A DNA stretch of 64,000 nt from NCBI RefSeq assembly GCF_000233955.1, contig NZ_JH376579.1, positions 62,001 to 126,000 of the forward strand, given 5' to 3'. Source of the DNA: Paraprevotella clara YIT 11840 (GTDB lineage Bacteria > Bacteroidota > Bacteroidia > Bacteroidales > Bacteroidaceae). A program made the translations under genes and the position numbers. The notes beneath the pieces are model-generated. The model ran no database searches, was not told the DNA's origin, and saw nothing but the letters and a program-made list of their open reading frames with translations. Position 1 is the first letter of the stretch; the number at the start of each line of letters is the position of its first letter. Positions 4,985 through 60,285 of the stretch are shown piece by piece.

Positions 4985-4992
4985 CAAAAATA
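4985..4992 (-). promoter_or_regulatory. Candidate -7 box for murG
   Basis: The minus strand reads TATTTTTG here, matching the Bacteroidota -7 consensus TAnnTTTG, and ends 18 bases before the murG ATG. No good TTTG -33 element lies 19-21 bases upstream, so the call is tentative. It would explain how murG and the genes after it are expressed across the long spacer behind ftsW. Confidence 0.35.
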
Positions 4993-5090
4993 ATAATAAA
5001 TCCGGTATTTCTACCCTTTTTTCTTCCTTATTTTATTCTGAAAATGAATTATTTCTTACATTTCAGACCTTCACAGCCTGTCATTCTACG

Positions 5091-5199
5091 CCCTTACGGA
5101 AGATGACAAATCATTCTCAGCCGAACGATTTTCCAATCTCAGCCGAATGATTTTTCGTTCGCCTGAGAAAAATTTTCCAATCTGCGGCAAGTGATTCAC
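5091..5199. repeat. Array A of a degenerate 22-base-period intergenic repeat (5 units)
   Basis: Five adjacent units can be cut at 5091-5112, 5113-5134, 5135-5156, 5157-5178 and 5179-5199. The best units begin ATTC or AATC, continue TCAGCCGA, then ACGA or ATGA, and end in TTTTCC or TTTTTC. Parts are inverted relative to each other: CTCAGCCGAA (5139-5148) faces TTCGCCTGAG (5157-5166) with one mismatch. The array sits in the 388-base ftsW-murG spacer (4967-5354), which otherwise holds only a hairpin at 5240-5278 and the murG promoter-like box. No protein-coding gene is evident in the spacer. Confidence 0.7.
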
Positions 5200-5239
5200 A
5201 AGACATAAATTATTGAAAACAAGACTTCTACAAACAAAA

Positions 5240-5278
5240 CCATCCACAGGCCTCACCCAAAGGGCAAGCTGCGGATGG
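5240..5278 (-). terminator. Terminator-like hairpin downstream of ftsW
   Basis: CCATCCACAG (5240-5249) and CTGCGGATGG (5269-5278) pair with one mismatch across a 19-base loop. Read on the minus strand the stem is followed by a T-rich stretch (GTTTTGTTTGT), so it could end or attenuate transcripts coming from ftsW before murG. The long loop weakens the call. Confidence 0.4.
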
Positions 5279-5354
5279 CGAATCATAAATCATGACACAA
5301 GGGTAAGTCCGTTCCCTTCCCGAGAACATCACCGCCCCTCATGCGAATCTTTCT

Positions 5355-18160: not shown

Positions 18161-18248
18161 GATCTGCGGAGAACGAAAAATCAATCTGCTTAGAATGATT
18201 TTTCAATCTCCTGAGATTGATTCGCCCCCTTCAGCCAATGGCATTCGG
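18161..18248. repeat. Array B of the 22-base-period intergenic repeat (4 units)
   Basis: Units 18161-18182, 18183-18204, 18205-18226 and 18227-18248 are each exactly 22 bases by my cut. They begin GATC or AATC, carry TGCGGAGA / TGCTTAGA / TCCTGAGA at the centre, then ACGA / ATGA / TTGA, and end AAAATC or TTTTTC; the fourth is diverged. GAAAAATCA (18175-18183) and TGATTTTTC (18196-18204) are inverted copies. It sits in the 435-base spacer 18039-18473, which otherwise holds the terminator at 18074 and the promoter box at 18409; no gene is evident in the spacer. Confidence 0.7.
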
Positions 18249-21899: not shown

Positions 21900-22616
21900 G
21901 ACTTCTTTCAATACGTCCAAAGATTTCAGTTCGGGAAATTCCGGGACATGCAACCGGTAATAATCATTCAACACCTCGATATAGCGCTCCCGTTCCCTGC
22001 GGTTCATCGCAAAAAAACGCATGGAGTCGTAATTCATCCGCATAAAAATCGGAATGGCCGCCGCTTCTTTGGGTTCCAGATAGGCATGATGGAAAGGACG
22101 GGAAGGGACAAAACAGGCATTCATCATGTCGAAATAATCCCCTTCATGCCAGGCTTCCACATTGGGATAAAAGCCGAGAAAACGCGTCAACCGCGTGATG
22201 AAAACCAAATGGAAGTTGGAAAAAGCCCGCTCGCTGGCATCCAGCCATTGCAAAGAATAAAGTATATAGGAAAAGAGCGGGCCGCCTCCCGCCTCGTGTT
22301 TCAACACCCGGCACAGGAATTCGGCCAAGAACAAAGCAATGGAAGACTTATACGGGTCGTACGGCAGCGACTGGTAAGTATAATCGAACCGCACATCCCG
22401 TATGCGTTGCAAAGCCGACTTCTGCCGGTAGTCGAAATCTATTTCCAAGATGGAAAGCGGCCGAAAGAACACACCTTTAAGGGTTGCCTTACGCGATTTC
22501 GGCAACTTTACCATAAAAGACACCGTCCCGCGCGTGGCCGTATAGATATCCACAATCAAAGAATTATCGTTGTATTTTAGCGTACGTAACACCACGCCTT
22601 GCGTTTTTTCCTGCAT
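21891..22616 (-). CDS. recO: DNA repair protein RecO
   Basis: Recombination mediator that with RecR loads RecA at gaps and anneals single strands. The 241 residues show the N-terminal OB-fold (TQGVVLRTLKYNDNSLIVDIYT, RGTVSFMVKLPKSRK) and the helical C-terminal region (LAEFLCRVLKHEAGGGPLFSYI, FVFITRLTRFLGFYPN-like segment). The zinc-binding cysteine cluster of E. coli-type RecO is absent, as in other Bacteroidota. The start ATG at 22616 is divergent from the tRNA-Glu/rpsT unit. Confidence 0.9.
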   Translation of the reverse strand: MQEKTQGVVLRTLKYNDNSLIVDIYTATRGTVSFMVKLPKSRKATLKGVFFRPLSILEIDFDYRQKSALQRIRDVRFDYTYQSLPYDPYKSSIALFLAEFLCRVLKHEAGGGPLFSYILYSLQWLDASERAFSNFHLVFITRLTRFLGFYPNVEAWHEGDYFDMMNACFVPSRPFHHAYLEPKEAAAIPIFMRMNYDSMRFFAMNRRERERYIEVLNDYYRLHVPEFPELKSLDVLKEVFA

Positions 22617-22714
22617 AAATCTCTATTTTTAGGGACTAAAATTAGGAAAAACAGCCGAAATACGGGAAAAAATCACCAAAAACACATTTTTTTGAAAGAT
22701 TTTCCTCGTTTTAT

Positions 22715-22745
22715 TTTGTCGGTTCAAAGAAAAGCCATACCTTTG
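22715..22745 (+). promoter_or_regulatory. Consensus promoter of tRNA-Glu and rpsT
   Basis: TTTG (22715-22718) and TACCTTTG (22738-22745) with exactly 19 bases between, a perfect match to the Bacteroidota housekeeping promoter. It lies 80 bases before the tRNA. Confidence 0.85.
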
Positions 22746-22825
22746 CATCGCAAATGAGAACGGTGGTCTGCAAATGACCTGAAAACGGTTTCAGAAAGCA
22801 AAAGAGCGAAAGCTCAAATCGCATT

Positions 22826-22897
22826 GGTCCCTTCGTCTATCGGTTAGGACGAGAGATTTTCATTCTCTAAAGAGGAGTTCGACTCTCCTAGGGACTA
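22826..22897 (+). tRNA. tRNA-Glu (anticodon TTC)
   Basis: A 72-base cloverleaf: acceptor GGTCCCT pairs with AGGGACT (one G-T), D arm GTC...GAC, anticodon stem AGAGA/TCTCT around the loop TTTTCAT with anticodon TTC, and T arm with GTTCGAC. The discriminator is A and CCA is not encoded. It is 30 bases ahead of rpsT and shares its promoter. Confidence 0.96.
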
Positions 22898-22927
22898 CTA
22901 AGTTGAACGAATTATTTAAACGTAAAG

Positions 22928-23182
22928 ATGGCAAACCATAAATCATCAGTAAAAAGAATACGTCAGGAGGAAAAAAGAAGACTCCACAACAGATATTACG
23001 CGAAGACCATGCGTAATGCTGTACGTAAGCTTCGCGCTACGACAGATAAGGCTGAGGCTACAGCGATGTATCCCAGTGTACAAAAGATGTTAGACAAATT
23101 GGCTAAGGTAAACATTATCCATAAGAACAAAGCTGCCAATCTGAAATCTAAATTGGCCGTTTATATCAACAAGTTGGGATAA
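22928..23182 (+). CDS. rpsT: 30S ribosomal protein S20
   Basis: Small basic protein binding the 5' domain of 16S rRNA. The 84-residue product has the typical opening [18 protein letters not shown], a long basic helix ([17 protein letters not shown]) and the C-terminal [11 protein letters not shown] segment. Normal length. It lies directly behind tRNA-Glu in one transcript and is followed by a terminator at 23203. Confidence 0.98.
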
Positions 23183-31555: not shown

Positions 31556-31642
31556 GATGTGCTGAGAATGGAAAATCAATCTCAGCCGAACGAAAAATCA
31601 ATCGCCTGAGATTGATTTTCCGTTTGGCGCAGAAAAAAATCC
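31556..31642. repeat. Array C of the 22-base-period intergenic repeat (4 units)
   Basis: Units are 31556-31577, 31578-31599, 31600-31621 and 31622-31642. The second begins AATC, continues TCAGCCGA, ACGA and ends AAAATC, the best consensus unit in the window; the third carries GCCTGAGA-TTGA-TTTTCC. The 16 bases 31570-31585 are the exact reverse complement of 31606-31621, so the array can fold into a 16-bp hairpin with a 20-base loop. It lies in the 364-base spacer 31375-31738 upstream of gpmI; the rest of the spacer holds only the gpmI -7 box. Confidence 0.75.
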
Positions 31643-49104: not shown

Positions 49105-49725
49105 TTTTTATCCACCACAACAGTATGACAAAACGTCAAATCATCCCCTACAAGAATCCCTTATTTATTCCTCAAACCGGAAGCACAAGGAAATATGCGA
49201 TTCTCGCTAATTGGAGAATGAACAATCTGTCAACCGTCCAAGACTTCTGCCTTTCACAAAACACAACGAAAGGGCACGGCATCCGCAGATACAAAAGAGG
49301 GAATGTAAGCATAAAACAAGATTCACAGGACAATCTGCCAATCCTTTTTAGGCCAATGAAACGACCCAAATAGAGTAAAAACGAGCCTCGGAAGCGCATC
49401 GCCACACCGTTTTCAGGAACATTTTCAACCCACGAGAGGAGAGTGTCCGGACGACGTGCGGACAAAAAAAATGTTTTCTGCTCCAAACGAAAAATCATTC
49501 GGCTGAGATTGAAACGCCATTTGGCTTAAGGAAAGTAAAAAAACGACCGACTGCTCCACAAAGGGTTAAAAAGAATAAAACAAAAACGACTTCCGCCACG
49601 CTATTTGCTTTCCGCTTCAGACATTCGGTTTGACAGTTTGTAAACTGGAAATCCCAATAACGGCAAAAATTAGGGGGCAGCCCCCGAAACCGGAAACCAC
49701 CCCCACATCCCACGCCGAACCGGGA
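49105..49725. other. 621-base spacer without a convincing gene
   Basis: Short frames on both strands overlap each other and show no domain, start signal or protein-like composition. The only structure I see is repeat array D (49475-49540). The spacer lies between the tRNA-Asn terminator and the 3' end of the convergent lipoprotein gene, so it needs no promoter for a known gene. Confidence 0.6.
49475..49540. repeat. Array D of the 22-base-period intergenic repeat (3 units)
   Basis: Units 49475-49496, 49497-49518 and 49519-49540. The first carries TGCTCCAA-ACGA and ends AAAATC; the second starts ATTC, carries GGCTGAGA-TTGA and ends ACGCC; the third (ATTTGGCTTAAG...) is diverged. The ATTCGGCTGA start is shared with array E. 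Confidence 0.65.
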
Positions 49726-60178: not shown

Positions 60179-60222
60179 AAACGGCATATATGCGGAAAAA
60201 TATCGCATATATGCCGTTTTTT
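60179..60222 (+). terminator. 16-bp perfect hairpin with T-run, no assigned gene upstream
   Basis: AAACGGCATATATGCG (60179-60194) is the exact reverse complement of 60204-60219, with a 9-base loop and six T residues following. It has the form of a strong + strand terminator, yet the tRNA-Leu transcript already ends at 60019 and no gene lies between, so it may end an unannotated small RNA. Confidence 0.75.
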
Positions 60223-60285
60223 CTCATGAGAATAAAAAATCATTCGGCTGAAAGAAAAAAATCATTCTCAGCAGATTGAAAAAAT
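60220..60285. repeat. Array E of the 22-base-period intergenic repeat (3 units)
   Basis: Units 60220-60241, 60242-60263 and 60264-60285, each 22 bases. They carry TCATGAGA / GGCTGAAA / TCAGCAGA at the centre and end AAAATC, AAAATC and AAAAAT; the second and third begin ATTC. The array starts inside the T-run of the preceding hairpin. Confidence 0.65.

Follow-up and report, generated by a model that had tools for sequence, protein, structure and literature searches.

Arrays of 22-bp units in the intergenic DNA of Paraprevotella clara, tentatively read as phased protein-binding sites

The window, by which we mean the whole 64,000-nucleotide stretch of Paraprevotella clara YIT 11840 DNA analysed here (genome G000; 4,231,598 bases in 165 contigs), holds five intergenic rows of related 22-bp units, designated arrays A to E. 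An earlier note on this DNA had described the five sites from their letters; scanning with a profile against shuffled sequence confirms the arrays and places them in an intergenic family found throughout the genome. Positions below are those of the window.

Array A, 5095 to 5196, no strand assigned: four units in 22-bp register, starting at 5095, 5117, 5139 and 5161
Array B, 18165 to 18221, no strand assigned: full units at 18165 and 18187 and a terminal core, TCCTGA
Array C, 31560 to 31635, no strand assigned: full units at 31560, 31582 and 31604 and a terminal core, GGCGCA
Array C, left arm of a perfect 16-bp inverted repeat, 31570 to 31585, forward strand
Array C, right arm of the same repeat, 31606 to 31621, reverse strand
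Array D, 49479 to 49530, no strand assigned: strong unit at 49479, weak unit at 49501 and a degenerate core
Array E, 60224 to 60279, no strand assigned: unit at 60224, weaker unit at 60246 and a terminal core, TCAGCA

Genes were called with our own codon-usage script, by which the spacers holding A to E measure 367, 435, 385, 1024 and 798 bp. The claim that arrays occupy exactly the window spacers longer than 350 bp holds for these five; a sixth (392 bp, 22616-23008) has no array and is split by a tRNA. Beyond the window this rule is only a tendency: spacers of 100-350 bp can also hold arrays, and many long ones are empty. The neighbours of array A (spacer 4988-5354) encode products matching MurG-type and FtsW-type Pfam families; as murG and ftsW usually lie close together in the division and cell-wall cluster, this spacer looks expanded. 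The units of array A at 5095 and 5161 are weak, a degenerate terminal core being present besides, and the array E unit at 60246 exceeds 10 bits with our first profile only. About 12-13 of the 19 units originally counted are clear, the remainder being degenerate edge units, and the 16-bp inverted repeat of array C is exact as reported. Immediately before array E, at 60183-60223, lies a long terminator-like hairpin (CGGCATATATGCG...CGCATATATGCCG, then T6). Array C (31561-31631) gives sub-threshold Rfam matches to animal miRNA precursors, among them mir-653 at E 6.8e-05 and 32 bits versus a cut-off of 77, which most likely reflect hairpin shape and nothing else.

Read in register, a unit consists of a 6-bp core, a 4-bp arm, an 8-bp linker and a second 4-bp arm; written from the linker, the design is GAWWWWTC, arm, GC-rich core, arm. 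It has approximate two-fold symmetry, centred both on the core and on the linker. Among 528 cores from P. clara and its sister species P. xylaniphila YIT 11841 (G014), strands pooled, the commonest words are TCAGCC (157), TGCGCC (108), TCAGGC (32), TCAGGA (31), TGCGGA (24), TCAGCA (22) and TGCGGC (20), followed by rarer ones. GCCTGA, previously taken for the inverse of TCAGCC, is in fact that of another core word, TCAGGC. The commonest linkers are GAAAAATC/GATTTTTC (179) and GATTTTCC/GGAAAATC (72). Our profile is its own reverse complement by construction, having been symmetrised, and the raw units show approximate symmetry only: in oriented TCAGCC cores the left arm is AATC in 72 of 157 cases and the right arm GAAC, GAAT or AAAC in 128 of 157. 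Profile positions 8, 11, 18 and 21 are near-invariant; core words and the W4 of the linkers vary, and in raw arrays both cores and linkers occur in either direction.

Arrays are short, with three units in 39 and four in 26 of the 86 P. clara arrays, and one, two or five units in nine, seven and five, respectively. Whole arrays tend to be arranged as inverted repeats. In 53 solo P. clara arrays of at least three units, the first and last informative linkers read A...T in 37, T...T in 10, A...A in four and T...A in two; the same order of patterns is found 11, four, two and zero times in 17 arrays borne on a MITE-like element (described below) and 18, 10, six and zero times in 34 P. xylaniphila arrays. 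The A...T pattern is identical on both strands.

The 22-bp profile was retrained on 215 P. clara units from outside the window, having been seeded once with a profile that included it. In the window it finds nine units above 16 bits, all at A to E, against a mean of 0.03 in 30 dinucleotide shuffles, and 14 above 10 bits against a shuffle mean of 0.93; two of these 14 lie outside the arrays, at 873 (14.2 bits) and 58059 (12.5 bits). Lag 22 is the top autocorrelation lag in the array spacers of the window (z 3.9, 5 spacers) and in those of 320 kb of contig C21 (z 12.0, 17 spacers). Array-free spacers of at least 200 bp give no lag-22 signal in the window or in C21 (z 0.3); those of C21 reach z 5.0 at other lags. 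The 14-base word TCTCAGCCGAAYGA occurs 63 times in P. clara and the pattern read backwards not once. In 764 kb of contiguous DNA (the window, C21:1-320000 and C39:1-380000, of which 669,446 bases are coding by our own calls), 81 of the 82 units that score above 16 bits lie between genes, at a coding density of 88%, and they fall in all three spacer classes. The earlier note had proposed checking the 22-base autocorrelation and intergenic enrichment and had named three outcomes that would speak against the family; what is seen is an excess over shuffles, a 22-base periodicity confined to array spacers and hits that are rare in coding sequence.

Counting single strong units, the 764 kb contain 18 + 18 + 5 = 41 arrays, from which we estimate by proportion about 230 per genome, or one per roughly 19 kb. 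Among spacers of at least 100 bp, arrays are present in 12 of 32 convergent, 10 of 63 divergent and 18 of 122 tandem ones, and in tandem spacers they sit closer to the upstream gene (mean relative position 0.35, n=18). The medians of array-bearing spacers, after subtraction of the array, are 434 bp (convergent), 553 bp (divergent) and 288 bp (tandem); those of array-free spacers are 87, 203 and 45 bp. Near one array, at a distance of about 600 bases, we noted a cobalamin riboswitch (L064 1957-2173, reverse strand; Rfam RF00174, 99.4 bits).

Spacing is the most regular property of the family. Successive units are exactly 22 bp apart in 242 of 243 cases, the lone exception being 46 (units above 10 bits and no more than 110 bp apart, from the window, L031-L145 and L207-L243, both species, identical stretches counted once), and in 56 of 56 distances of up to 110 bp between units above 10 bits in the 764 kb of contiguous DNA. 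Any indel within a row should throw a distance off register, and one such case (46) is seen. This strict phase, kept while the letters vary, speaks more strongly than any other feature for constrained DNA geometry, and it bears out the suggestion that a period of two helical turns suits a protein bound along one DNA face. Phased A-tract curved DNA was considered and rejected, as intrinsic curvature is not raised (mean z -0.90, thus below dinucleotide shuffles, in 70 arrays, with assumed wedge values).

Comparison with P. xylaniphila shows how the arrays change. In 24 ortholog pairs, selected for a detected array in both genomes, array length differs by 0 in 19, by 22 bp in two, by 44 bp in one and by 1 bp in two. 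In 23 pairs (L119/L102 enters the length comparison and is absent from the indel count), we counted 91 indels in 4911 aligned flank bases (18.5 per kb) versus 13 in 1962 aligned array bases (6.6 per kb), with identities of 0.860 for flanks and 0.916 for arrays. Ten of the 13 array indels are 1-4 bp long: four are opposed gaps at inverted segments, five belong to a single pair, L141/L095, whose unit number has changed (net 22), and one lies at an array edge (L124/L096). Segments have inverted in place without leaving the register, as exact reverse complements of 16 bases between two inverted cores in L142/L087 and of one 22-bp unit in L113/L062. A linker flip with one further change is found in L134/L070, a paired two-sided core swap in L129/L067, and gain or loss of units in L109/L037, L141/L095 and L142/L087. 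The 18 arrays of C21 form an unbiased set; nine are syntenic in the examined P. xylaniphila contigs, where the array is present in six and missing in three. These absences comprise a partial deletion that leaves one unit remnant, an unpolarisable change and a MITE-like element that has lost its inside; no clean empty site with both ends was found among the P. xylaniphila sites lacking an array.

The family is patchily distributed. The 14-base word occurs 40 times in P. xylaniphila, twice in G020, once in G037 and not at all in the other 37 of 41 genomes. A model built from sequence only (R1; 50 two-unit windows of the P. clara genome outside the window, some on both strands) gives, on both strands at E up to 0.1 and with up to 150 candidates scored per genome, at least 261 matches in P. 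clara, at least 255 in P. xylaniphila and two weak ones in G020. At E up to 1e-4, with the best 48 candidates scored in each genome so that weak families would be missed, it matches four of 121 sampled family genomes: P. clara, P. xylaniphila, G058 (three) and G118 (one). A pooled model (R2), for which the best 14 candidates per genome were scored with the same consequence for weak families, matches P. clara, P. xylaniphila, G015, G058 and one site in G181 among 399 genomes. R2 finds nothing in the other 15 genomes of the genus, several of them incomplete, so that 3 of 18 carry arrays. The scan of related Bacteroidales proposed in the earlier note thus finds a family that is not order-wide as searched (4 of 121 genomes with R1, 5 of 399 with R2). 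No match to array C was found in phages and plasmids, and no exact 20-mer in viral contigs; a Paludibacter MAG with one exact 20-mer was set aside as a lone site with no unit above 12 bits. This patchiness indicates that any role of the arrays is dispensable.

Other versions of the family keep the period. In G015, which belongs to the same genus, there are 155 matches; the commonest core words are different, and the spacing is 22 in 21 of 23 cases and 21 in the other two (11 loci). G058, of another genus, has 13 matches, and G118 two. In G058 the unit TTCTCATGCGGATGAAAAATAA recurs 22 bp apart in 20 of 20 cases (9 loci), always in a single orientation within each locus read; the period is therefore common to versions of the array where inversion is not. 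The G058 version, detected with a model built from P. clara, may be either homologous or convergent. Its direct 22-bp arrays stand beside 21-bp arrays (L202 1446-1786, L192 1271-1391, L182, L189), and separate fold-backs (TCTACTACGAGATAAA...TTTATCTCGTAGTAGA) lie near arrays in the same genome.

By these features an array works most like a phased row of protein-binding sites. With confidence a little short of even, we propose that the arrays are docking sites for a putative DNA-binding protein, probably a dimer, that would dock on successive sites along one face of the helix. Selection would then hold the two-turn spacing and the roughly symmetric recognition features and, because the pattern is nearly identical in both directions, cores, arms and linkers could invert in place with little loss, plausibly by template switching at small hairpins. 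The protein may serve chromosome organisation or local regulation. R6K iterons and Tn7 TnsB sites are rows of about 22-bp protein-binding sites in strict phase, and in this the arrays resemble them; the arrays differ in being scattered over an estimated 230 or so chromosomal loci, and the Rep_3 initiator (PF01051) was found in 0 of 13 genomes (controls matched in 2 of 14). The HU-HIG family was set aside as a clue to the partner: it is present in all 13 genomes, array-bearing or not, and so does not discriminate. Several observations count against docking: the symmetry is only approximate, the distribution is patchy, three of the nine syntenic C21 arrays are missing in P. xylaniphila, G.U pairs are in excess in P. 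clara tandem spacers and in sense-strand predicted folds (see below), and array spacers would still be long with the array taken out, which tolerated insertions would lead one to expect. Docking is least able to account for the inverted order of whole arrays: it does not by itself call for such an order, which would be needed for a fold-back or for a transposon-like complex with two ends.

When repeats are scattered through a bacterial genome, the usual explanation is either a transposase (REP/RAYT, MITE) or RNA structure. Neither demonstrably accounts for most array copies, yet the spacing is base-exact across species while the letters are inverted and exchanged; should a protein read these strips, they would represent a new lineage-specific chromosome-binding system in gut bacteria. 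One speculative extension, which we regard as unlikely, is that the roughly 230 strips per genome form a chromosome-organising or regulatory system whose inverted rows are read by a putative undescribed protein. In the same vein, and just as doubtfully, that protein might tolerate a small vocabulary of interchangeable core words and recognise the 22-bp ruler itself, with G015 and G058 carrying versions in other words.

The main rival to docking, which we consider possible though on balance doubtful, is that the arrays are, or derive from, non-autonomous mobile DNA, in the form of elements with two ends and with units that bind a transposase; these would have spread in the past and now be inherited vertically. 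In 18 of 77 non-redundant P. clara arrays of at least two units, a common flank is present (on both sides in 17); it makes up the arms of a larger MITE-like element, and the array sits at the apex of that element. The arm consensus reads outward CTGAAAGATGCCTGAAACATCCTTCAG...GTAAC...CCTGAAAGATGAAGGAT...TTTTTGAAAAACCCTGGG, and fold-back elements of this kind, with long inverted arms and an apical array, were seen at L055, L064, L065, L079, L087 and other P. clara loci such as G000:C21:279557. The inner motif of the element, with up to two mismatches, occurs 29 times in P. clara, nine in P. xylaniphila, once in G002 and not in four further genomes, a control motif being absent from all seven. 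Mobility would also suit the inversion of arrays as wholes, the patchy species distribution and spacers that remain long when the array is subtracted, as well as two sites in P. xylaniphila: at C21:279557 the outer arm sequence is kept and the array is gone, and at C21:107380, one of the six syntenic sites with an array in both species, the array is MITE-borne there and solo in P. clara. Against this, the other 59 of 77 arrays fall outside the flank cluster and have no inverted flank (none above the 95% null), six of the nine syntenic C21 arrays are also present in P. xylaniphila, and two of the three absences (141256 and 279557) look like deletions in that species. The RAYT-type Y1 transposase (PF01797) is likewise absent from P. 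clara, P. xylaniphila and G015, the search having matched 2 of 23 genomes (G010, G018) and 5 of 14 controls. A search for the Mu/TnsB C-terminal family gave no match anywhere, control genomes included, and is given no weight here.

Two described repeat families invite comparison, and by the features tested the arrays belong to neither. BrickBuilt, as described, is a MITE of Porphyromonas gingivalis with a 23-nt direct repeat in 1 to 22.8 copies, found at 19 loci in ATCC 33277 and bounded by IS5-like TIRs (GAGACC...) (PMC4596501). The two are alike in several respects: both occur in Bacteroidales, are intergenic (always for BrickBuilt, 81 of 82 units here) and consist of tandem units of about two helical turns, with some copies in a leader/tail element that has small inverted-repeat ends, with predicted stem-loops and with a range limited to close relatives (PMC4596501). 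The arrays here differ from what is described there in their 22-bp period (242 of 243), in units running in both orientations, in having mostly three to four units at an estimated 230 or so loci, and in the 59 of 77 copies with neither a common nor an inverted flank. No leader/tail with an IS5-like TIR was found, and GAGACC is absent from the arm consensus of the 18 flanked arrays, a consensus that stops short of the exact ends. REP, BIME and REPIN sequences with their RAYT, as described, are similar in being short palindromic intergenic repeats of high copy number that occur in both orientations outside coding DNA (PMC3733652, PMC3116915), and REPs are palindromes of 20-40 bp tagged at one end with GTAG or CGTC (PMC3733652). 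The arrays differ in their fixed 22-bp phase and shared linkers; neither tag was seen by eye among the common cores, arms and linkers, and with no RAYT-type Y1 transposase in the array-bearing genomes P. clara, P. xylaniphila and G015, membership was rejected. The family had not been recognised in the earlier note, and we recognised no description of it in searches of an open-access library.

An RNA role is not favoured. That the arrays are RNA elements, transcribed as 3'-UTR hairpins that act as mRNA stabilisers, terminators or processing signals, we judge distinctly improbable, although whole arrays do fold back, with a mean z of -5.43 and -5.39 on the two strands (116 arrays, both species, dinucleotide shuffles). 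Against the same kind of shuffles, fold-back is strong in array C (z -8.4 and -6.3 per strand); values are -0.5 and -1.7 for array D and -1.3 and -1.5 for array E. Real solo arrays average -27.9 kcal/mol, versus -25.2 for units joined from other solo arrays at the same relative position (53 arrays, p 0.047) and -25.0 for their own units in permuted order (p 6e-6). Unit design thus accounts for most of the fold-back, and the A-first, T-last order for the remainder; on this ground fold-back of the whole array was set aside as the driver, with the array-level inverted arrangement remaining. Pairing between units was examined through folding energy only. Within units, the arms show no covariation (z -0.2 to 1.4, 372 of 528 units), by which a per-unit hairpin was rejected. 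Of the eight linker columns, six show less pairing than permuted partners (z -3.2 to -5.8) and the inner two show more (z +3.6 and +1.9).

Tests of strand are mutually inconsistent. On the sense strand of P. clara tandem arrays, G.U exceeds A.C (62 vs 35, p 0.008), and predicted folds of 55 tandem arrays from both species contain 163 G.U pairs in sense versus 108 in antisense, with mean energies of -36.4 and -35.1, respectively (p 0.09). However, the counts are equal in P. xylaniphila tandem arrays (27 and 27), and the P. clara divergent control, on an arbitrary strand, is skewed the other way (G.U 12 vs A.C 29, p 0.012). The preference for convergent spacers and the position of tandem arrays nearer the upstream gene agree with a 3'-UTR element, whereas the presence of arrays in divergent spacers, the similar folding of both strands, the uninverted units of G058 and the lack of any Rfam match at gathering score in 12 sources do not. 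Terminator-like hairpins between stop codon and array were found in 13 of 88 segments versus 4 of 88 shuffled ones by a crude test; an intrinsic terminator was rejected given the arrays in divergent spacers. The interpretation in the earlier note is therefore partly supported as a whole. Its suggestion that the inverted parts suit RNA hairpins stands insofar as whole arrays are inverted beyond random unit order; hairpins as the cause are not established, in view of the missing arm covariation, the like folding of both strands, a wobble test that disagrees between species and controls, and fold-back mostly reproduced by units of other arrays.

Very improbable, finally, is that the arrays are a neutral minisatellite whose regularity comes only from slippage and template switching. 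The units of one array have different cores, arms and linkers, so that their register is not accounted for by homogenisation; small indels are much less frequent in arrays than in flanks, and nearly all units avoid coding DNA. In its favour are the unit-number changes of 22 and 44 bp and the in-place inversions between the sister species, whose array pairs record the inversion in place of short palindromic DNA.
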